From contig PAPM01000047.1 of assembly GCA_002708905.1 (NCBI GenBank), positions 124,001-188,000 on the forward strand: a stretch of DNA of 64,000 bases, in the 5' to 3' direction. The translations under genes were made by a program, and so were the position numbers. Below are positions 500 through 11,332 of this stretch, piece after piece. A model generated the notes under the pieces. The model was not told the DNA's origin, made no database searches, and was given only the letters and a program-made list of their open reading frames with translations. Source of the stretch: Pseudomonadales bacterium (GTDB lineage Bacteria; Pseudomonadota; Gammaproteobacteria; Pseudomonadales; Ketobacteraceae). Each line of letters begins with the position of its first letter. The stretch's first letter is position 1.

Positions 500-3400
500 A
501 TGCGATGCCCAAGTTGTGGGGCTGATAACCCTGCGTTTCACGCTTTCTGTTACCAATGTGGTAGCAAAGTTGCTCAATCTTCGACCCCGGAAGGCGAATA
601 TTCTGCGCCACGAACCCAGGATCTGCAGCCTGAGCTTAAAAAAGTCTCCATTTTATTCGTCGATATCACCAACTCAGTACAGCTGATACACAAGCTGAAG
701 GCTGAGGACAGTGCGGATTACCTGGACCCCACCATTTCGGCCCTCAAACAAAACGCGCATCGCTACGGCGGCATGATTAACCGGGTTGACGGCGATGGCA
801 TGATGGTTATTTTCGGTGCTCCTGTGGCCTATGAGGACCACGCTGTGCGGGCCTGTTACGCTGCACTGGATATGCTGAAATCGGTACAGGCCGAATTCGA
901 GCGTACCGGTATTGCTGTTCGCATCGGAATCCACTCCGGCGAAGTATTGATGAAGCCTTTCTATAATGATTTCTCAGTTGATTATGAAGCGTTGGGGCCC
1001 ACCGTGTACCTGGCACATCGCATGGAAGTGTTGGCCAGTCCAAATACCGCCGTTATTTCCAAAGAAACCTACAACGCCGCTCAAAAGCTGATCAAGGTGC
1101 GTGAGCTTGGGCCGGTCCAGGTCAAAGGGCTGGATGAACCGGTCGAATTGTTCAAGATACAAGGCAAGATTCGGCAGGAAGACAGTAGCGACAGCAAATT
1201 GGGCGACACCCCCTTCATTGGTCGCGAGCATGAATTCAAATTGATCCAGCAGAACCTGATGGAGACCTGGGATCATTGCGGTCGATGCGTGGCTATCTGT
1301 GCAGAACCCGGTGTGGGTAAATCCAGGTTGGTGACCCGTTTCCTCCACAGCGTGGACCCCACTCAATTCAATGTATTAACCACCGCCTGCGATTCCCACA
1401 ATCGCAGCACAGCCTATTTGCCCTATTCAAACATTATACGTTGCTGGTTGAATGTGCAGGATTCAGATTCACAACTGGACATAGCGCAAAAGCTCCGAGA
1501 CAGAATTGCCAATCTGAAGGAGACCTTTGCCGAGCATCTATCCGCTTATCACTTTCTGCTGGATCTGCCGATCCAGAATCAGAGCTGGAATAACCTGGAG
1601 CCGGTACAAAAACGACAACGGGCCAGGAAAGCCATGCGGGCGTTGCTGGAGGAACTGGCGAGCCAGAAGCCGCTGGTGATTTTGTTGGAGGACCTGCACT
1701 GGATCGACGGCGAAAGTCAGACCCTGCTGGAACAGCTGGTGAAATCGGTTCATGAGCATACCATCATGCTGATCGTGACCTACCGCCCCGAATACCAGGC
1801 CAGCTGGCTGAACGAGAACGTCAGTTTGCTCGAGCTGAAACCGTTTACCGACCTGGAATCCAGTGATTATCTCAAAGGGGTGTTGGGTAAGGATCCCAGC
1901 CTGACCACGCTGCGGGATGAAATCAGCCGCCGCTGCGAAGGCAACCCGCTCTACATTGAGGAAATGATCCACCATTTAATGGACAGTAACCTGATCTGGG
2001 GGCATCCGGGACAATACACCTCCGGTTTGAACACGCTTCCGGATACCTTACCCCTCACCATTCATTCAGTCATCTCCACCCGTATTGATCGACGGTCGAA
2101 GCTGGCAAAAAATATCCTGCAGGCCGCATCCGCCATCGGCCAACGCTTTTCCACCGGCCTATTGGACTACATTACGGACATCCCCAGGGATTACGCCAAA
2201 CATGCCATCGATGAACTGATCCAGTGTGGCCTGATCATCAAGACCAGCGAGGGTTTGAATGATGAATACCAGTTCAAACATGCCCTGGTACACCAGGTTA
2301 CTTACGATTCCATTCCCCGCGAGCGCAAACGCCTGATTCATGCCAGCCTGGTCAATGCCATCGAGTCGCTCCACAAGGAACGTCTGGAGGAGCACGTCTA
2401 CCGGTTGGCGGAACATGCCTATATGGGCCAGTACTGGCACAAGGCGGTGGAATACTACCTGAAGGCCTGCTATCACGCGATTGGACGGTCTTCACATCAT
2501 CAGGCGGTACTGTTGTTGGATCGTGGACTGGAAGCGCTGCGCCACCTCCCTTTGAATAAAGATACACTTGGCCAGCGCATCGATTTCCTGGCGGTGGGCA
2601 TGAATGCGCTGATCCCCCTGGGGGAACAGGACCGATTGGTGCGGGATCTCAAAGAGGCCGAAAAACTCTGTGACGCAGTCGGGGAGCCCAAACGTACCTG
2701 CTCCATTCTGTGTCAGCTCACCAATGCCCTGTGGATGGTTGGCAAGCACAATGAAGCGTTCAGTGCGTCAAGCCGCGCAGTGGAACTGGCCAATGAAATA
2801 GAACATGCACCTCTGCAAATCGCAGCTAACTACAATCACGCCATGGTGCACCATGCCATGGGTGACTTTGAAAACTGTATCCGCCTGGAACAGGGTATTC
2901 TGCGTGTGCTGTCCGGTGATATGGAAGTGAGCCGCCTTGGATGGACCGGATACCCCAGTGTGTTTTGCCGAACCTTCTACGGCAACAGCCTGGTGGAATT
3001 AGGTCGCCTGGCGGAAGCTGAGAATGTCATTCGACGGGGGATTGAAATCGCAGAAGGGGCTCAACACCCATACTCCAAGGCCATGATCTACGATACCTAT
3101 GGCTACTACCTGCTTTCAGTGGGGGACTACAATACTGCCCGCAGTATCCTGGACACCGCCCTCACCATCTGCGACGAATTTGCCATTCACACCATGGTCC
3201 CGGCCGTATCAGCCAAACTTGGCGAGGCCCTGATTGCCAGTGGCGAATTGCAATTGGCTGAAAAGGTGCTGGAACAGGCGGTCCAACCCAGCTGCTACCG
3301 TAAAGGTGGTCGTTACACCTGGTTCTATCTGTTCAAGGCCATGGCGGCGTTACAACTGGCCCTGGACAACGTGGATAAGGCGCACCTTTATGCGCGCAAG

Positions 3401-3718
3401 GCCTTCACCGTCACCAGCGAAACCAATGAGAAAGCGCACCATGGCTGGGCTTGTCTCACCCTGGCCAAAGTTCACAACGCCATGGATCAGCAACTGCAGG
3501 CCGATAAACTGGTGGATCTGGCGCTGGACATTGCAAAGCAGAAGAATATGGCCCTACTGGGATACAACACCGCCTATTACCATGCGGAAGAGCTACAACG
3601 TCGTGAAGATCATGATGCCAGTCTGGTGTACATGGAACTGGCCCATGAATTCGCAACCTTCACAGGCCATCGTCCCTTTCTGGATAAGCTCAGTTTTCTG
3701 AAAGAACGTATCGCCTGA
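500..3718 (+). CDS. Zinc ribbon / class III nucleotide cyclase-like / AAA ATPase / TPR protein
   Basis: Large cytoplasmic signalling protein of 1072 aa. Residues 3-20 form a zinc ribbon (C3, C6, C17, C20). A class III cyclase domain follows at about 47-215: the metal-binding aspartates D55 (FVDITNS) and D99 (VDGDGMM) and the arginine R174 (LAHRME) are present, but the position that is normally the transition-state asparagine is Y170 (TVYLAHR), so activity is uncertain. An orphan AAA/STAND-type ATPase comes next, with Walker A AEPGVGKS at 268-275 and Walker B ILLEDLHWID near 393-403. The C-terminal half (about 620-1072) is helical TPR-like repeat. Such proteins are thought to link protein or ligand binding by the TPR region to nucleotide signalling. 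The ATG is preceded by a poor ribosome site. Its TGA directly abuts the stop of the convergent DyP-P450 gene. Confidence 0.88.
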   Translation: MRCPSCGADNPAFHAFCYQCGSKVAQSSTPEGEYSAPRTQDLQPELKKVSILFVDITNSVQLIHKLKAEDSADYLDPTISALKQNAHRYGGMINRVDGDGMMVIFGAPVAYEDHAVRACYAALDMLKSVQAEFERTGIAVRIGIHSGEVLMKPFYNDFSVDYEALGPTVYLAHRMEVLASPNTAVISKETYNAAQKLIKVRELGPVQVKGLDEPVELFKIQGKIRQEDSSDSKLGDTPFIGREHEFKLIQQNLMETWDHCGRCVAICAEPGVGKSRLVTRFLHSVDPTQFNVLTTACDSHNRSTAYLPYSNIIRCWLNVQDSDSQLDIAQKLRDRIANLKETFAEHLSAYHFLLDLPIQNQSWNNLEPVQKRQRARKAMRALLEELASQKPLVILLEDLHWIDGESQTLLEQLVKSVHEHTIMLIVTYRPEYQASWLNENVSLLELKPFTDLESSDYLKGVLGKDPSLTTLRDEISRRCEGNPLYIEEMIHHLMDSNLIWGHPGQYTSGLNTLPDTLPLTIHSVISTRIDRRSKLAKNILQAASAIGQRFSTGLLDYITDIPRDYAKHAIDELIQCGLIIKTSEGLNDEYQFKHALVHQVTYDSIPRERKRLIHASLVNAIESLHKERLEEHVYRLAEHAYMGQYWHKAVEYYLKACYHAIGRSSHHQAVLLLDRGLEALRHLPLNKDTLGQRIDFLAVGMNALIPLGEQDRLVRDLKEAEKLCDAVGEPKRTCSILCQLTNALWMVGKHNEAFSASSRAVELANEIEHAPLQIAANYNHAMVHHAMGDFENCIRLEQGILRVLSGDMEVSRLGWTGYPSVFCRTFYGNSLVELGRLAEAENVIRRGIEIAEGAQHPYSKAMIYDTYGYYLLSVGDYNTARSILDTALTICDEFAIHTMVPAVSAKLGEALIASGELQLAEKVLEQAVQPSCYRKGGRYTWFYLFKAMAALQLALDNVDKAHLYARKAFTVTSETNEKAHHGWACLTLAKVHNAMDQQLQADKLVDLALDIAKQKNMALLGYNTAYYHAEELQRREDHDASLVYMELAHEFATFTGHRPFLDKLSFLKERIA

Positions 3719-6694
3719 TCAACCGGGATCACAGCGCAACAACATTGCCGCCGGCATGTTGTACTTGTAGGTCATATCCCCCAGATTACCTGCGGCAGGA
3801 CGCACGTTGGACAGGGTCAGCAGCATTTTCAGCGCTTCCCGGATCTCCAACATAGCGACATGATGACCCATGCAGGCATGGGGCGTTCCATCCATAAAAA
3901 TAAAGGGTTCCTGATCAGTGGGCACTTTATTTTTCAGGTTCGCGCCCATGGTAACCTGGGAAACCAGCAACACCACGGAGCCCGGCTCAATATTCAACAC
4001 TTCGCCAACCGATGAAGTGTAGGTCGCGCCATTGGTACAATAGCGTGGCAGAACAGGTGCAACCGGATTCATACGCAAGCAGGTAACAATGTCCTCATCC
4101 AGCATGGGGTCCAGCTTCGCCTCCATTGCTACACGTTGGGGCTCCCTCGCCATGCGCCAGGCTTCCAGGAATTGCCTGACCTGTTCCTTAACGGTCTCCT
4201 TCGCCTGCTCCGGGACGTCCGGTTTGTTGGCGGCCAAAAACTGCAGACCACTCACCAGATCCTTACCCAGATCCAAAAGCGTTTTTACTACCGTACTGAT
4301 GCCTTTGGCGGTGGTATCGGTACTGCCTACCATGAGCTCAAGCACACTCTGGCGCACAGCGATCATCAGATGCTGGTCGCTATAACCATAGTGCTGCTGG
4401 TACATGCTGATAAAACGCGACACCATTGTGCCGTCCTCTTTAGGATGGGCAATGCGATCTCTGATCTGAGCCTCCAGATGGTCCAGCAACTCGGACGAGG
4501 CGTTCTTCGCCAGCTCGGTTAGATAATCTGCGTTGTACAGGTTGAGAAACACTTCGATAAACAGCATTCGCACCCAGAACAACAGCGTTTGATCCGGCGT
4601 AGTACTGAAGCCAAGCGAGGCATAGTTTTCCTGCCATACCGGAGGTAACTCGGAAAATCCGGCACGATCAAAGAAATGGGCGATCTGGGTTTTCGAAAGC
4701 ACTTCACCCGGCTTTTCCTGCGGTGCAGCGACCCCATAGAAGTCTTTGATCACAGCCAAGGGCAGCACTCTACCCAGGCCTTCCACCAATTCCAATTGTC
4801 CCGAACTTAAAAAACCATCTCTGATGGCTTCAAGTTGGGGTTTTAAAATATTCTTTAATTGATCCTGGTAGCCCTGGTGCTCTACCTGCTTGCCCGATTC
4901 CGCTTTCAGTTGCACCCGTTCAGGGGTATTGGGCCGGGACAACAACATACTGCTCCGGGTCAGATTGTAGATTTTTTTAGCGTAATGATCATTGGTAAAC
5001 AAGCTGGGCTGATTAAGAATGCTGAACACATCTTGCGGGTGGGCGAAATAATAGTAATAGCGATCTGCCTGCCCATTGGCGACCCGCAACTTCACAAAGC
5101 GCTTGCCGGTCAACAATGCACCCGCATCAACGTAGCTGGCCACATCCAAAGGATCAGAGGCATCCGGCTTAAACGGGATGATGTGTTGCTTGGGGATTTT
5201 GAACGGATTGATGGGCTGTGCCAGTCCGGCGATCAAACCCAGTGCCTTGCGACCCGGGGTAAAAAAGTATTCGCCACCTTTAACATGCACATATTGTTTC
5301 AAACCGAAGATCGGCATCCTTTCCCCATTAAAGGAGAACTGCCCCAGATCTTCTGGCCCCCTGCTGCCGACAATGGGGTCGATGATGGGGCTGGGCATGT
5401 GCATGAAGTCACAATTATTGATCCAGCTTTTCTGGATAAATTCAAATTGGGAATCAATCCGGGCGTTATAGCAGAAAAAGTGCAGACCACGGGATTCCTC
5501 GGGCGCTGACTGGGCACACTCATCTGGCTTGATAAACGTCCCATAGGGCATACCCCGCCGAATAATTCGGTGCTGATCCACCAGCCGGGTGCCTTCATCC
5601 ACCCCGTCATTTAGCGTCAGGCGGGGGTTTACCCGTCGCACGTGGGATGTGAAGGGGCAACGCTCTCCTTCCGCATCATCATGGAAGTCAAAATCATTCT
5701 GCTTAGGTTGCGGATGGCCGGACACCAGTGGCGTGCCATCGTATTGTCGCCCCACCAACTTCGCAGCTAATTCAGCATCATCTTTACAGTAATCCCGGAA
5801 ACCCGCCACATCCTGCTCCAGCTTTCGATACACCAGAAAGGAGCCGTTCATGGTGAGATCCTGAAAGGCGGATTTGGCTGGATCTGTTTGTTTGGGCGTA
5901 AGTGGATTCAGTCTGGTTTTATCTTCTTCGTCGAGATTTTTCAGGTCAAGCTCATCAAGATACCCCAGCAGGAATTCGCCTGCAGCGAGGGGTTCCCATT
6001 TCGCTTTGGCGTGTTCTTTTTTTCCCGCGATCGCACTGCCCGGCATACCGTCAGCCACCCTCGGTTGGGATATACCATCCACAAAGCCAAAGTGCTCCCG
6101 AATGCGACGCTCATGACGAATCACATGAGCCTGCTCACGGGCCAGGCAATGGGTGCCGGGAAACTCACCCCCTGCGTTCAGCAATGGCGAAACACAGGCA
6201 TCAATTTTCTTGAAATGCGCTTCCCGGTCCGCTTCACTCCACTCTTCCGGGGGCTTGGCGAACTCGTCTTCCAATGAAGGTACATAATTAACCGCCAGGA
6301 AAACATGGATATGGGGGCTGCCATAAAAGCCTTCCCACTGAGTTGGGTAATCTCCCCACTGATCGCCAATGAACTGGGCCCGTCGTGCCATGCCCTCCCG
6401 AAAAGCGGGCGGGAACTGCTGAATTAGATGATCCGGCAACCCCATGCGTTTTAATCCGCTGTAGCTAAAGCCAATATTGACAAAACAGGGGTTCTGCAAG
6501 GCGACACCGCCTTCTTCATGCAAGTCCCCATCGGATACCAGCAGTCCGCGGAACGGGTCGGAGCTAATAAAGCGGGAAAACTGGAGTGGGTCAGTGACAG
6601 TGAGAAAGAAATAGCGTGCCGCCGATGGTCTGGCACTGCGTATGATGTGAGCCTGAATATCGTCAAGCTGAAGTAGATTTTTTCCCGAGTTCAC
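3719..6694 (-). CDS. DyP-type peroxidase fused to a cytochrome P450-like domain
   Basis: A 991-aa protein with two predicted haem domains. The N-terminal half (about 20-480) is a DyP-type peroxidase of the long class: GFVDGIS (203-209, distal D206), proximal-ligand region CPFTSHVRR with H351, and HRIIRRGMPYG with the distal arginine near R379/R380. The C-terminal part (about 515-991) is P450-like: I-helix GSTDTT (790-795), K-helix TCLRMNP where the normal ExxR glutamate is T871 while R874 remains, and a haem loop GTPHACMG with the presumed thiolate C941, one residue longer than the usual G-x-H-x-C spacing, then VAMLE. There is no signal peptide or Tat motif. The 21-bp gap to the 198-aa upstream gene suggests one transcript. 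Peroxide-driven oxidation of a lipid or other hydrophobic substrate is a guess; no ferredoxin or reductase gene is nearby. Separate natural domains are well known; the fusion I do not recall as characterised. Confidence 0.85.
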   Translation of the reverse strand: MNSGKNLLQLDDIQAHIIRSARPSAARYFFLTVTDPLQFSRFISSDPFRGLLVSDGDLHEEGGVALQNPCFVNIGFSYSGLKRMGLPDHLIQQFPPAFREGMARRAQFIGDQWGDYPTQWEGFYGSPHIHVFLAVNYVPSLEDEFAKPPEEWSEADREAHFKKIDACVSPLLNAGGEFPGTHCLAREQAHVIRHERRIREHFGFVDGISQPRVADGMPGSAIAGKKEHAKAKWEPLAAGEFLLGYLDELDLKNLDEEDKTRLNPLTPKQTDPAKSAFQDLTMNGSFLVYRKLEQDVAGFRDYCKDDAELAAKLVGRQYDGTPLVSGHPQPKQNDFDFHDDAEGERCPFTSHVRRVNPRLTLNDGVDEGTRLVDQHRIIRRGMPYGTFIKPDECAQSAPEESRGLHFFCYNARIDSQFEFIQKSWINNCDFMHMPSPIIDPIVGSRGPEDLGQFSFNGERMPIFGLKQYVHVKGGEYFFTPGRKALGLIAGLAQPINPFKIPKQHIIPFKPDASDPLDVASYVDAGALLTGKRFVKLRVANGQADRYYYYFAHPQDVFSILNQPSLFTNDHYAKKIYNLTRSSMLLSRPNTPERVQLKAESGKQVEHQGYQDQLKNILKPQLEAIRDGFLSSGQLELVEGLGRVLPLAVIKDFYGVAAPQEKPGEVLSKTQIAHFFDRAGFSELPPVWQENYASLGFSTTPDQTLLFWVRMLFIEVFLNLYNADYLTELAKNASSELLDHLEAQIRDRIAHPKEDGTMVSRFISMYQQHYGYSDQHLMIAVRQSVLELMVGSTDTTAKGISTVVKTLLDLGKDLVSGLQFLAANKPDVPEQAKETVKEQVRQFLEAWRMAREPQRVAMEAKLDPMLDEDIVTCLRMNPVAPVLPRYCTNGATYTSSVGEVLNIEPGSVVLLVSQVTMGANLKNKVPTDQEPFIFMDGTPHACMGHHVAMLEIREALKMLLTLSNVRPAAGNLGDMTYKYNMPAAMLLRCDPG

Positions 6695-6715
6695 AGGCGT
6701 GCTCCGGATTAATTG

Positions 6716-7312
6716 TTAGTTTAGGTAGGTTTGGTTCTCTTTAACGAACGTATCGAACGCCTTGCGAAAGTCGTCGCAACATCCTTTGCTCTCTTTCGCA
6801 TACCAATCCGCCATAAAACGATCAAAATTGGCTTTGAACCGGCGCAGGGATTGTCTGCGAAGCAGTGACTCATCCGGAATCGCTGCATAGAACGCGGTGG
6901 TCTGAACCTGGTGCGATTTCACGTATTGCCAGAATGCGTCGAAGTCACGACACCCTTTTTCGGGATAACCAACACAATTACCCCAGACCCGATCCATATC
7001 GTCGGCAATGAGGGTCGAGAAATCCCTCAGGTATTGCCACATGCTACCGTCATAGTTAGAGGTAAAAATCAGCTTGTCCTCTCCGGACGACGGGTCTTCC
7101 CAAATAATCCAGCGGGCAAAATGTATGGTCTGCACCAAACGAATGGGTGTTGGTATCCCTTTCAATTCCCGATTCAGTACCGAATCCAAAACTTTTTGCA
7201 GTTGTTGTTTGTATGTCAGCACACCCTCCGGCGTGCGGCCCCTTCTTATGGTGGTAATGACGGTTAACTCATTCACACCACCCAGAAAACGAGAATCCTG
7301 AACGTGTGACAT
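6716..7312 (-). CDS. Conserved unknown protein, partner of the DyP-P450 fusion
   Basis: A 198-aa soluble protein with no signal peptide. It has a beta-alpha-beta style N-terminus (ELTVITTIRRG), then IHFARWIIWE and LIFTSNYDGS strands and a helical C-terminus rich in aromatic residues. The strand order and the FARW / FTSNYDG motifs are reminiscent of dimeric alpha/beta-barrel (ferredoxin-like) folds, the same broad fold as DyP peroxidases and chlorite dismutases, but I see no haem-ligand signature. It lies 21 bp upstream of the fusion gene on the same strand and is probably transcribed first. A role as an accessory, substrate-delivery or small-molecule-binding protein for the haem enzyme is inferred from position only. 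Confidence 0.6.
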   Translation of the reverse strand: MSHVQDSRFLGGVNELTVITTIRRGRTPEGVLTYKQQLQKVLDSVLNRELKGIPTPIRLVQTIHFARWIIWEDPSSGEDKLIFTSNYDGSMWQYLRDFSTLIADDMDRVWGNCVGYPEKGCRDFDAFWQYVKSHQVQTTAFYAAIPDESLLRRQSLRRFKANFDRFMADWYAKESKGCCDDFRKAFDTFVKENQTYLN

Positions 7313-7573
7313 CCAGTGGTCCTTGATGGTTTATTGAAAGAATAATTACGAAAAAAATGAGAACTACTTCACTTTTACCACCTAATCAAAGCACTTGATT
7401 GCGTATATGTAAACAGCTTTTCGCGTTTTATGTATTTTGCGGCTGCGCAACAATTGTTCTTGCAAAAAAACACATTAATTTTCGATCACTTAAGAAAATA
7501 TTTACTACACTTACAGCAGTTTAGGGCTAAATGCCCTCTTGTTGTTCGCGTAGTGCAAGGCAGGCCGGGGGGC

Positions 7574-9976
7574 GTGTTGAAGTTTCGCTTGTTTCAACCT
7601 TTGCTGTTTGTAATGCTGGCCGTTCTCTGCGGGCGGGGCTTCGCATCGCCCTATATTGTGCCCATTAAAGCCTCAGAGGTGCAGGACATGCCTCTGGGTA
7701 AACGGCTGCAAATTCTGGAGGACCCTTCCGGCACCCTGTTGGTGGAAGATGTACGTTCCCCGGACATCAGCAGGCAATTTGAACCCTTGTTTGTGGATAC
7801 CCCCTACCTGGGTCGGACTCACTCTGTATTCTGGTTCCGATTTGATTTGGATTTCAGTGCGAATGACTCTGACCTGATTCTGGAACTGGGTTACCCCCAC
7901 CTGAAACACATCACCCTGTACCGATATGAGAACGATCAACTGGTTGACCAGGAGAGCGCCGGCTACGGCGACCCGAACACGACGAAATTGCATTGTTCCC
8001 GCCCGTGCTTTGACATTCCGCAAAGCGATGGCGTCCAAACGCTGTACTTACGGGTAAACAGCGATTCTCCCCTGTTTGTTCCCATTAACCTGCGCAACCC
8101 GAATAGCCAGCTGAAGAGCGAGCGCATCATGATGGCACTGTCGGCTTTGTTCTACGGTGCATTTATGGTGATGGGGCTGTTCAATCTGTTTCTGTATTTT
8201 TCCACCCGCAAGAGCAGCTATATCTATTACGTGGCTTACATTATTTCCGTCGCGCTTTGGACACTATCCCATGATGGTGTGCTCAGGGAAATGCTGTTTA
8301 TGCAGTACGAGGCTCTTGCTTCCTACCGGGTACACTTTATTTTCACCCTGCTGAGCCTGTGCATGGGGGCTATTTTCTGCCAGAAGTTCCTGAACACAGC
8401 TGAAAATATGCCGCTGCATCACAAGGCTTTCAGTTTTCTGGTTCTGATGGGCGTCGTTGACATTATTCTGATCATTATGACAAGCAAGGTACAGCTGCCC
8501 AACTCTGCCAACCTGTTGACCATTCTCCTGTGTGTTGCGGGGCTCTCGGCGGGAAGTGTAGGTATCATGAGAGGCCTGAAAACAGCCCGCTTTTTCCTCA
8601 TAGCATGGCTTAGCGTTATTGTCGGCAGTGCCAGTTGGGTGCTCACCATCTCAGGCGTATTCCCCCTCAACAAAATCACCTTGTTCAGCGTGCATATGGG
8701 CGCCCTGCTGGAAACCATTCTGCTGGGGCTGGCATTGGGGGACCGCATCAATGTGCTGCAGGCTGAACGCATCCAGGTGGAAAAGGAGGCCAAGCGGCGG
8801 CTGGAGGAAAACAATATCAAGCTGGCCGCCAGCAACCGCTTTAAAGACGAGTTCCTGTCCACCGTCAGCCATGAACTGCGCACCCCCATGAACGGAATCT
8901 TTGGTGCCTACGAACTACTTGAACACACGGACCTGAATACTGAGCAGGTGAAGTACCTGAGCACCATCAGCCGCTCCAGTCGGGATATGATGGGTATGAT
9001 CGAGAACATCCTGACCTACACCCAACTGGAATCCGGTATTGCCAAGCCCAACACCCATCCGTTCCGCATCAAAGAGTGCCTGCAGGAAATCGCCATGCAC
9101 TACCGCGGCCGCGCCGCCATGCAGGATCTGGATTTCGATTTTCGGCTGGATAACAATATTCCCATGACCCTGGAAGGGGATGAGGACAAGCTCCGATTGT
9201 TACTGGATCACTTGCTGGATAATGCCTTTAAGTTTACCGATCAAGGCTTCGTTCGATTTGAGGTGACCCACCTGCAATCCAGTGAGGCCGATCAGGAGAA
9301 GCTGATGTTCGTGATCCGGGACTCCGGCTGCGGTGTACCGGAATCGTTGCAATCCGACATATTTAATTCCTTTAAGCAGGCGGATGGTTCCTTGACCCGA
9401 CGTAAAGGCGGTTTGGGGATCGGACTGGCGTTGTGCCAACGGATCATCAGTATTCTACAGGGCAAGCTGGAGTTCAAATCCGTGGTTAACGAGGGGACAC
9501 AGGTGGTACTGACCCTGCCCTTCCGTCCGGCTGAGGATCAGTTTCGCCAAGCCAATCAGATATCCACCACCATCAAGCCGGAAAACACGGATATTCTGGT
9601 GGTGGAAGACAACTACGTCAACAAGCTGGTTATGGAAGGCCAATTAAGAAAACTGGGCTTTCAGGTATTCTCGGCGGGTAACGGACGCGAAGCGGTCAGC
9701 ATGATGGAAAAGCGGGAATACGACCTGGTCTTTATGGATTGCCAGATGCCAATCATGGATGGTTTCGAAGCAGCCCGGCGTATACGCCAGCTCAACAACC
9801 GCAATGCTTCGATTCCCATTATCGCGGTCACCGCCAATACCAACCCGGGCGACCGGGAGCACTGTATTGCCGCCGGCATGAATGACTACATCAAGAAGCC
9901 CTTCAACCAAGCGGTGCTGATTGCTGCCATTAACCGTTGGCTAAGTTACGATACCGAGGCCCAGCAGCTGGCTTGA
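7574..9976 (+). CDS. Hybrid sensor histidine kinase with 7TMR-DISM receptor
   Basis: Membrane receptor kinase of about 800 aa. After a signal peptide (LLFVMLAVLCGRGFA) comes a periplasmic 7TMR-DISMED2-like jellyroll domain, seven hydrophobic helices, a short coiled coil, a HisKA domain with the phosphorylated His in FLSTVSHELRTPMNG, an HATPase domain with G-boxes (DSGCGVP, GGLGIGLAL) and a C-terminal receiver with acceptor Asp in LVFMDCQMPIMDG and the conserved lysine in YIKKPF. The reading frame is open from 7430, but the upstream part looks non-coding; the GTG at 7574 (or TTG 7577) follows a purine-rich GGCCGGGG and puts the signal peptide at the N-terminus. No response regulator gene is adjacent, so the output partner is unknown. 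DISM receptors are thought to sense carbohydrates or similar ligands. Confidence 0.88.
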   Translation: MLKFRLFQPLLFVMLAVLCGRGFASPYIVPIKASEVQDMPLGKRLQILEDPSGTLLVEDVRSPDISRQFEPLFVDTPYLGRTHSVFWFRFDLDFSANDSDLILELGYPHLKHITLYRYENDQLVDQESAGYGDPNTTKLHCSRPCFDIPQSDGVQTLYLRVNSDSPLFVPINLRNPNSQLKSERIMMALSALFYGAFMVMGLFNLFLYFSTRKSSYIYYVAYIISVALWTLSHDGVLREMLFMQYEALASYRVHFIFTLLSLCMGAIFCQKFLNTAENMPLHHKAFSFLVLMGVVDIILIIMTSKVQLPNSANLLTILLCVAGLSAGSVGIMRGLKTARFFLIAWLSVIVGSASWVLTISGVFPLNKITLFSVHMGALLETILLGLALGDRINVLQAERIQVEKEAKRRLEENNIKLAASNRFKDEFLSTVSHELRTPMNGIFGAYELLEHTDLNTEQVKYLSTISRSSRDMMGMIENILTYTQLESGIAKPNTHPFRIKECLQEIAMHYRGRAAMQDLDFDFRLDNNIPMTLEGDEDKLRLLLDHLLDNAFKFTDQGFVRFEVTHLQSSEADQEKLMFVIRDSGCGVPESLQSDIFNSFKQADGSLTRRKGGLGIGLALCQRIISILQGKLEFKSVVNEGTQVVLTLPFRPAEDQFRQANQISTTIKPENTDILVVEDNYVNKLVMEGQLRKLGFQVFSAGNGREAVSMMEKREYDLVFMDCQMPIMDGFEAARRIRQLNNRNASIPIIAVTANTNPGDREHCIAAGMNDYIKKPFNQAVLIAAINRWLSYDTEAQQLA

Positions 9977-9991
9977 CCCTCTACCAGTTCA

Positions 9992-11332
9992 CTACCAATT
10001 CAAAGGCAGGCTGATGAGGAAGCGAGCGCCCCCCAAAGCAGATTCTTCAATGGTAAGCTCACCTCCGGATGCAGTAACAATATCGCTTACCACCGCCAGA
10101 CCAATCCCCTGCCCCGTTTCCCGCTCATCACGACGCACTCCCCGGCTCAACACCTTTGCCTTATCGCCGGGCTGAATACCGGGACCATTGTCCTCCACAT
10201 AAAGCCGGATCCGGCCCGAATGAATATGACCGCCCACCCTGATCCGATCACCGCCGTATTTGCAGGCATTGTCCATCAGGTTTCCCAACACTTCCAGCGT
10301 GTCACCTTCGTCCCAAGGCATTCTCAAGCCGGGGCGAATATCCTGCTCAAACTGAATGGACTTGTCCGCATAGACCTTGGTTAACACCGCAATCATGCGC
10401 TGGTACATCTCCAGGAGCACAGCACCCTGCCCACTCACCTGCGGTACGGCTGATATGGCGCGCTTCAGCTGGTAGTTCACAATCTCATCCATACGCCGGA
10501 CCTGCTCATCCAGTGTTTCCCGATGCTGGATCAACGCCGAGCTGTTACTGGTGTCCAAGCCTTTTAACACCGCTAGGGGTGTCTTCAGACTATGGGCCAG
10601 ATTTCCCAGACTGTGCTTGTAGCGCTCCCGCATGGAACGCTCATGTTCCACCAGACGATTTAAGTTATTCACCACCGGCATTACTTCTGAGGGATAAACC
10701 CTGGCAATACTCTGCTGACGCCCCTGCTCAACCCCATCCAGCTCTCTGGCCAAACGACGGAAAGGACGAAACCCCAGGTTCAGCAATAAAAACACCAGCA
10801 CGATGGCCGCCAGCACCAAACCACCCAGCCATACCCATAGGGTGGTCTCGAAACTCTTGATTTGCGCAATGTATGGCTGCTCCCATTCGCGCACGACAAA
10901 GGTGTAAGGCGAAGCGGCGGCGCCTTCTTCCCAGAACACATTAATACTGAGCTGGTAGTACTGCTTGCCGGTCTGATCTGCCACGGTCTGGAAAAGCCAT
11001 TGGCCCGGGTCCGATTGCGGCGGCGCCGGGAACTGTTCCAGCAGCACGGAGCGCGAGCGCCAAATGACTTTGCCGTCATGTACAACCACCGCCAGCAGCC
11101 CGGAATTCAACTGATTAAAACGCGGATCCGCAAGATCAGCCGGCAAGGTCAGCTCGCCTTCGACATAGTCGGCGGTGGCGATAAAGCCGAACATCTGGAG
11201 TTTCAGCTGCTCCCGGGCACGATCCACAATACTGGCCTGGAACGACTGTCGCAGAATCCAACCGGCACTGATGGAAAACACCGCGAGAATCAGTGCAGCG
11301 GCCAACACAAACCGTGTTCTCAGAGACAACAA
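9992..11332 (-). CDS. Sensor histidine kinase, PhoQ-like
   Basis: Inner-membrane kinase of 446 aa with an N-terminal helix (ALILAVFSISAGWIL), a periplasmic sensor of roughly 130 residues, a second helix (LGGLVLAAIVLVFLLLNLG), a HAMP-like linker, a HisKA segment with the phosphorylated His in NLAHSLKTPLAVL and an HATPase domain (DNACKYGG, DNGPGIQPGD, GQGIGLAVV). The NLAHSLKTPL form is typical of the PhoQ-like kinases of pseudomonads and relatives. It is the last gene of the minus-strand unit that starts with the PepSY protein, three bases after the response regulator gene, so the two form a two-component system. The actual signal (Mg, peptides, lipid state) cannot be read from sequence. Its stop lies 15 bp from the stop of the hybrid kinase. 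Confidence 0.88.
   Translation of the reverse strand: MLSLRTRFVLAAALILAVFSISAGWILRQSFQASIVDRAREQLKLQMFGFIATADYVEGELTLPADLADPRFNQLNSGLLAVVVHDGKVIWRSRSVLLEQFPAPPQSDPGQWLFQTVADQTGKQYYQLSINVFWEEGAAASPYTFVVREWEQPYIAQIKSFETTLWVWLGGLVLAAIVLVFLLLNLGFRPFRRLARELDGVEQGRQQSIARVYPSEVMPVVNNLNRLVEHERSMRERYKHSLGNLAHSLKTPLAVLKGLDTSNSSALIQHRETLDEQVRRMDEIVNYQLKRAISAVPQVSGQGAVLLEMYQRMIAVLTKVYADKSIQFEQDIRPGLRMPWDEGDTLEVLGNLMDNACKYGGDRIRVGGHIHSGRIRLYVEDNGPGIQPGDKAKVLSRGVRRDERETGQGIGLAVVSDIVTASGGELTIEESALGGARFLISLPLNW

Follow-up and report, generated by a model that had tools for sequence, protein, structure and literature searches.

A DyP peroxidase-P450 fusion protein in Ketobacteraceae as one arrangement of a conserved bacterial haem protein module

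A predicted two-haem fusion enzyme

The 64,000-nucleotide stretch of DNA analysed here (the window) derives from a Ketobacter-type marine bacterium (Ketobacteraceae) and encodes, in a single stop-free frame on the reverse strand (3719..6694), a 991-aa protein that most likely represents a two-haem fusion enzyme, in which a DyP peroxidase with a predicted histidine-ligated haem is followed by a strongly diverged cytochrome P450 with a predicted cysteine-ligated haem. A conserved bacterial module, of which this fusion represents one form, consists of a DyP peroxidase, a small partner protein of an unnamed family (K198) and a second haem protein, either a P450 or a catalase-like protein.

The gene begins with a GTG start codon, 7 bases downstream of a ribosome-binding-like GGAG (6702..6705, reverse strand) that is also found at the related loci L002 and L003, and is matched over its whole length by homologues in six further Ketobacteraceae genomes. 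Its product comprises a DyP half (approximately residues 1-490; 5225..6694), a junction of about 40 residues that the alignment places at 5105..5224 and that contains no long flexible linker, and a divergent P450 half (approximately residues 531-991; 3722..5104) recognized by profile matches and by its position in the P450 tree, all on the reverse strand. A sequence-only reading of the window had noted two haem-protein signatures in one 991-aa frame; the frame was confirmed and its strand added, and all motifs then quoted (GFVDGIS, CPFTSHVRR, HRIIRRGMPYG, GSTDTT and PHACMG) are present in the fusion protein. DyP and p450 are the only Pfam families found in the window protein, animal haem peroxidase (PF03098) being absent, and neither Pfam nor NCBIfam models identified a fused reductase or ferredoxin domain as present in the self-sufficient P450s CYP102, CYP116 and CYP505. 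An AlphaFold2 model of the full chain, built from three sequences, reached a mean pLDDT of 33.8.

The DyP half matches DyP_N (31.8 bits; Pfam cut-off 27.5), Dyp_perox_C (28.9 bits; cut-off 20) and the NCBIfam model Dyp_perox_fam (TIGR01413; 104.2 bits vs a cut-off of 100.5), and its best PDB matches are the DyP structures 8re3 (E 4.9e-37), 7anv and 4au9, with a further match to 2d3q. The GxxDG motif with the catalytic Asp206 is present as GFVDG (6074..6088, reverse strand) and reads G[FY]xDG in all seven fusions compared. Based on alignment to 8re3, His351 within TSHVRR (5642..5644, reverse strand) is the predicted proximal haem ligand and Arg379 within HRIIRRG (5558..5560, reverse strand) the predicted distal arginine, both of which are invariant in the seven fusions. 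The DyP identity proposed earlier for the first half is thus borne out by curated models scoring above their cut-offs and by retention of the catalytic Asp, His and Arg. The window DyP shares the GxxDG, SHxRR and HRIIRRG motifs with advanced-type (class C/D, type V) DyPs; however, known members of this type are single-enzyme proteins, whereas the window DyP is joined to a P450. DyP peroxidases occur widely, and for most of them the role in nature is not known. The genome from which the window was taken also encodes a second, separate DyP peroxidase (G000:C15:79408-80241, 312-aa frame).

An atypical P450 half

The Pfam p450 model (PF00067) scored 16.1 bits (E 0.005) on the window protein, below its cut-off of 22.8, but 23.5-31.7 bits, above the cut-off, on the P450 halves of four relatives; it was not listed for the two fusions of the sister genus (L144 and L145). 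A model search of both halves, as suggested by the sequence-only reading, therefore supported the DyP half directly and the P450 half in four relatives but not in the window protein itself. A profile of five Ketobacter second halves retrieved P450s as all of its listed PDB matches (best E 1.7e-5), and the Ketobacter P450-half profile aligned over 343 columns with stand-alone P450s linked to DyP genes (hhalign E 1.4e-21), which identifies the second half as P450-related. A CYP74- or CYP152-like identity was considered and dropped, as the stand-alone DyP-linked P450s have ordinary bacterial P450s, and no member of either family, as their 60 best PDB matches.

The I-helix motif GSTDTT (residues 790-795; 4310..4327) and, within the haem-thiolate loop FMDGTPHACMG (3866..3898), Cys941 and the HxCMG sequence are invariant in all seven fusions, and a K-helix NPVAPxxPR stretch is conserved among them. 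In contrast, the K-helix ExxR motif has been lost: according to the alignment of the seven fusions, its position in the window protein reads TCLR (4073..4084; all three on the reverse strand), with Glu lost and Arg kept, and in the five fusions of the window's genus Glu is replaced by Thr or Asp (TCLR/DCLR). Both residues are gone in the fused P450 halves of L144 and L145 (KCLY and LCLY), in which the cysteine and STDTT are kept. Most stand-alone and giant-chain P450s (see below) have an intact ExxR and a G-x-x-P-T I-helix, and the Cys-loop of the Ketobacter fusions is changed relative to the loop of these relatives, which is close to FGxGxHxCxG. Owing to its Asp-Thr I-helix, changed Cys-loop and lost ExxR, the window P450 is atypical even within its own group. 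An Asp/Glu-Thr acid-alcohol pair in the I-helix is a trait of O2-using P450s, and in most relatives Pro occupies the place of the acid. The Cys loop and I-helix had been correctly recognized in the sequence-only reading, which missed the ExxR loss and the contrast between Asp-Thr here and Pro-Thr in the relatives.

The ExxR motif is nearly universal among P450s, with CYP157 as a known exception (PMC3990721, PMC3599690). Like the window P450, CYP157 of Streptomyces lacks a canonical ExxR and is linked to signalling genes (PMC3599690, PMC3990721); however, CYP157 keeps the Glu and loses the Arg, whereas in the Ketobacter fusions the Glu goes first, and CYP157 is not fused to a DyP. As ExxR exceptions are documented, homology stands and, judged by its sequence, the window half is a homologous but atypical P450 that has lost ExxR.

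Conservation of the fusion in Ketobacteraceae

The fusion was identified, free of internal stops and at 52-78% identity, in 7 of 15 Ketobacteraceae genomes, including five of the six genomes of the window's genus and both genomes of a second genus (L002 and G923 denote the same contig, as do L003 and G127). In comparison with L002, dN/dS was 0.079 for the DyP half, 0.080 for the junction (residues 486-540) and 0.075 for the P450 half, and purifying selection thus acts on both sides of the junction. Relatives in other families do encode the DyP and P450 parts as separate genes; nevertheless, the recurrence of the fusion in seven genomes, the conserved junction and the dN/dS of about 0.08 reject two genes joined by sequencing error, local read-through or a chance frame, an explanation to which we assign next to no probability. 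The genome survey proposed by the sequence-only reading hence recovered the same fusion in two genera, and neither of the outcomes that it had named as fatal, a C-terminal half that fails to match the P450 fold or a local read-through of genes separate in all relatives, came true.

K198 and the wider module

The gene for K198 (198 aa; 6716..7312) shares the reverse strand with the fusion gene, from whose start it is separated by 21 bases on the upstream side, and K198 was encountered at each fusion locus for which the flanks were inspected. No relative of K198 was found in Pfam, NCBIfam or the PDB. Profile searches for K198 gave matches in 6 of 369 genomes from the class and in 26 of 398 from the phylum, and in six-frame reading a DyP gene adjoins K198 in all 37 K198 loci. 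As 24 of these loci were chosen through a K198 match, the search itself does not account for the link. Double-K198 proteins and giant chains contain a transmembrane-like stretch between two K198 domains, and K198 may assist DyP either as a partner without haem or as an adaptor to the membrane. The predicted beta-alpha-beta pattern of K198 is compatible with a ferredoxin-like fold; the AlphaFold2 model, built from three sequences, was poor (mean pLDDT 47.0).

Within the scope of the survey (Pseudomonadota and plasmids), the 37 loci comprise 5 with the Ketobacter fusion, 11 with a separate P450, 5 encoding giant chains, 10 with a catalase-like protein and 6 with neither partner, counts that do not equal independent events. 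At the separate-P450 loci, the genes for P450, K198, K198 and DyP form a single run in most cases. The five giant chains (L080 4602-8834, L081, L082, L083 and L050) are 1411-1530 aa long and are arranged as P450, (K198), transmembrane segment, K198 and DyP; the first K198 exceeds the threshold in L080 only, and its duplication in the others is partly assigned by analogy. Giants were also observed in named organisms, namely Novosphingobium (L131), Sulfitobacter (L135) and Pararhizobium (L136); together with the five above, these chains span about 1400-1640 aa and have one or more transmembrane segments and a domain order opposite to that of the window fusion. These named giants are encoded on plasmids. 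The protein from Novosphingobium aromaticivorans (WP_011907039.1) is annotated as a DyP protein only and those from Sulfitobacter and Pararhizobium as P450s only; DyP-P450 fusions are thus present in databases under one-domain names. An acidobacterial plasmid encodes K198, K198 and DyP without a P450.

None of the 37 K198 loci contains both a P450 and a catalase-like protein, a mutual exclusion with a hypergeometric probability of 3e-4 outside Ketobacter when kinship among loci is ignored. The label 'catalase-like' is tentative: we take these proteins to belong to the y4iL-type family, no curated Pfam or NCBIfam family names them, and their PDB match to catalase has an E-value of 0.97. In L091, DyP is itself fused to a catalase-like protein (7688-10387, 900 aa), and with the animal haem peroxidase and the further catalase-like gene of the same cluster, the haem-protein genes or domains number four. 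Proteins of about 1000 aa with an animal haem peroxidase domain, each adjoining a catalase-like gene, are encoded in L033 (12904-15924), L051 (11274-14507) and L091 (3272-6295); the domain was tested with Pfam in L091 and assigned by similarity in L033 and L051. Furthermore, the K198-DyP-P450 cluster of L087 includes a patatin-like phospholipase and a FadL-type transporter (6708-7736 and 9050-10390), and a GMC oxidoreductase occurs in the L030 cluster.

In the P450 tree, the Ketobacter halves (support 100/100) and the giants (100/99) form separate groups, and all 21 DyP-linked P450s are placed together against 17 other P450s with a support of 88/65, which is suggestive of a single clade of Ketobacter and other DyP-linked P450s; a clade of Ketobacter and stand-alone P450s without the giants was neither supported nor rejected (p-AU 0.125). 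In the DyP tree, the Ketobacter proteins and the giants again form one group each, placed apart from one another; branches are long and the position of the Ketobacter group is unsure. Because the groups are apart in the trees and their domain order is opposite, two separate DyP-P450 fusion events are likely from the sequences. Among 195 genomes of the order, the sole stand-alone match of the window P450 half is a P450 in G059, located three genes from a DyP.

Cyclase-domain and other regulatory neighbours

The fusion gene lies tail to tail, with abutting stop codons, with a gene on the forward strand (500..3718) encoding a zinc ribbon, a class III cyclase domain (Guanylate_cyc, 75.6 bits), an AAA_16 domain (79.4 bits; both Pfam) and TPRs. 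A cyclase-type gene in the same convergent position was found in both fusion genera, at each fusion locus for which the flanks were inspected, as well as in L094 (G811; 31-38% identity), where P450, K198 and DyP are separate. In L080, L081 and L136, the gene immediately preceding the giant is of the cyclase-TPR type, and SARP-like/TPR regulators take the place of the cyclase in L131 and, by sequence, in L050, L082 and L083. The number of cyclase domains per genome ranges from one in G721 (the neighbour of the giant) and three in G601 to seven in Ketobacter and eighteen in G811, and in G721 and G601 the association does not look like chance. The presence of this neighbour hints that the module's output may be under regulation or may act as a signal. 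Both this gene adjoining the fusion and K198 as a part of the system had been overlooked in the sequence-only reading.

Possible functions of the module

We tentatively favour a two-haem cascade that would use peroxide or hydroperoxide. The DyP haem would take up H2O2 or an organic hydroperoxide to yield an oxidized or radical product, this intermediate would be handed over inside one chain or complex, and the second haem could isomerize, cleave or oxygenate the DyP product or use its peroxide oxygen. The recurring partnership, in split operons, in a fusion of opposite order and with interchange of P450 and catalase-like protein, speaks for a chemistry in which both haems take part. Peroxide-coupled or sequential oxidation, as previously proposed, is hence plausible, but the argument originally made for it finds no support: redox partner genes are indeed lacking from the window, whereas 15 Fer2 domains are encoded elsewhere in the genome.

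A peroxide basis for the shared chemistry is suggested by the ability of P450s and catalase-related proteins to rearrange hydroperoxides, by the lack of the I-helix acid in most relatives and by lipid-type neighbours, among which the GMC oxidoreductase of L030 is counted. The animal haem peroxidase domain has the fold of fatty-acid dioxygenases, and its presence in L091, L033 and L051, the patatin and FadL genes in L087 and the transmembrane segments between K198 domains hint at lipids; the substrate is probably lipophilic. Rearrangement of fatty-acid hydroperoxides is known from two classes, P450s (CYP74 and dioxygenase-linked CYPs) and catalase-related haem proteins such as the Nostoc lyase (PMC13049297). 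On the other hand, the Asp-Thr pair in the I-helix of the fused P450 fits ordinary O2 activation, the loss of ExxR makes haem binding by the P450 half uncertain, and lipid-type genes are absent from the Ketobacter locus and present in few clusters.

The Asp-Thr pair would suit a conventional monooxygenase with a guard, in which the P450 uses O2 and unlinked ferredoxins, and DyP removes leaked H2O2 or oxidizes the P450 product. Consistent with this, the STDTT acid-alcohol pair is retained in all seven fusions, and the window's genome contains, besides its Fer2 domains, 16 P450 matches. We nevertheless regard this explanation as rather unlikely, given that no ferredoxin gene is located within the window, that the acid is replaced by Pro in most of the stand-alone and giant P450s, and that DyP-K198 also pairs with the catalase-like protein, which is unable to act as a P450-kind O2 monooxygenase.

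The stepwise ExxR loss, with Glu lost first and Arg also lost in the sister genus, where Pfam sees no P450, would fit a P450 half that is no longer an enzyme and uses its haem, or its fold only, as a sensor, scaffold or DyP activator, perhaps feeding the protein of the adjoining cyclase gene. Activators derived from P450s exist (the NCBIfam P450 models matched by the stand-alone relatives include TIGR04515, far below its cut-off), and the ExxR-less CYP157 P450s are linked to signalling conservons (PMC3599690). However, the Cys ligand, HxC, STDTT and NPVAPxxPR are conserved, and the P450-half dN/dS against L002 reflects strong constraint, which leaves a non-enzymatic role improbable.

An extension of the two-haem cascade, which we consider somewhat unlikely, is that DyP-K198-P450 (or -catalase-like) represents a separately evolved haem-haem oxylipin-type machine, in which DyP would make or activate a hydroperoxide, the P450 or catalase-like haem would rearrange it, and a cyclase-domain or TPR regulator would exert control. 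Such a machine would then parallel, on a DyP basis, cyclooxygenase plus prostacyclin synthase and the fungal Ppo enzymes.

Relationship to known systems and implications

Peroxidase-P450 fusions in both domain orders are known from fungi and oomycetes (PMC5919972). The fungal Ppo, linoleate diol synthase and allene oxide synthase fusions (CYP6001-6005) resemble the window protein in combining an N-terminal haem peroxidase-like domain with a C-terminal P450 that has an HxCxG Cys-loop (PMC13049297, PMC5919972). However, their peroxidase half belongs to the animal peroxidase/cyclooxygenase superfamily, whereas that of the window is a DyP; because these folds are unrelated, the likeness is one of analogy and not homology. 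Oomycete CYP5619 has an N-terminal P450 and a C-terminal peroxidase and is thus P450-first like the giant P450-K198-K198-DyP chains, but its peroxidase/dioxygenase half is of another family, and neither K198 nor a transmembrane segment has been described for it. The clusters in L091, L033 and L051 are comparable to the Nostoc pair of a 10S-dioxygenase and a catalase-related hydroperoxide lyase (PMC13049297) in combining a haem (di)oxygenase with a catalase-related haem protein, although the Nostoc pair consists of separate genes and includes neither DyP nor P450.

Full-text searches of open papers yielded no description of a DyP-P450 fusion, in line with the earlier remark that a characterized DyP-P450 is not known. 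By sequence, the window fusion appears new by its partner, DyP, and known by its design, and it falls outside the fungal family because it lacks the peroxidase domain that defines that family.

The recurrent pairing of DyP and P450 in many distant bacteria suggests a peroxide-based oxidation system that has so far escaped description. A fixed partnership of DyP with a P450 or catalase-like protein, fused more than once, offers a handle on one role of DyP peroxidases, namely coupled two-haem chemistry, and K198 is an unnamed family that marks such DyP systems. A P450 lineage with its Cys intact and ExxR lost represents a test case for what ExxR is needed for. If the fusion is peroxide-driven, it would constitute a self-contained oxygenation catalyst that requires neither NAD(P)H nor a redox partner.
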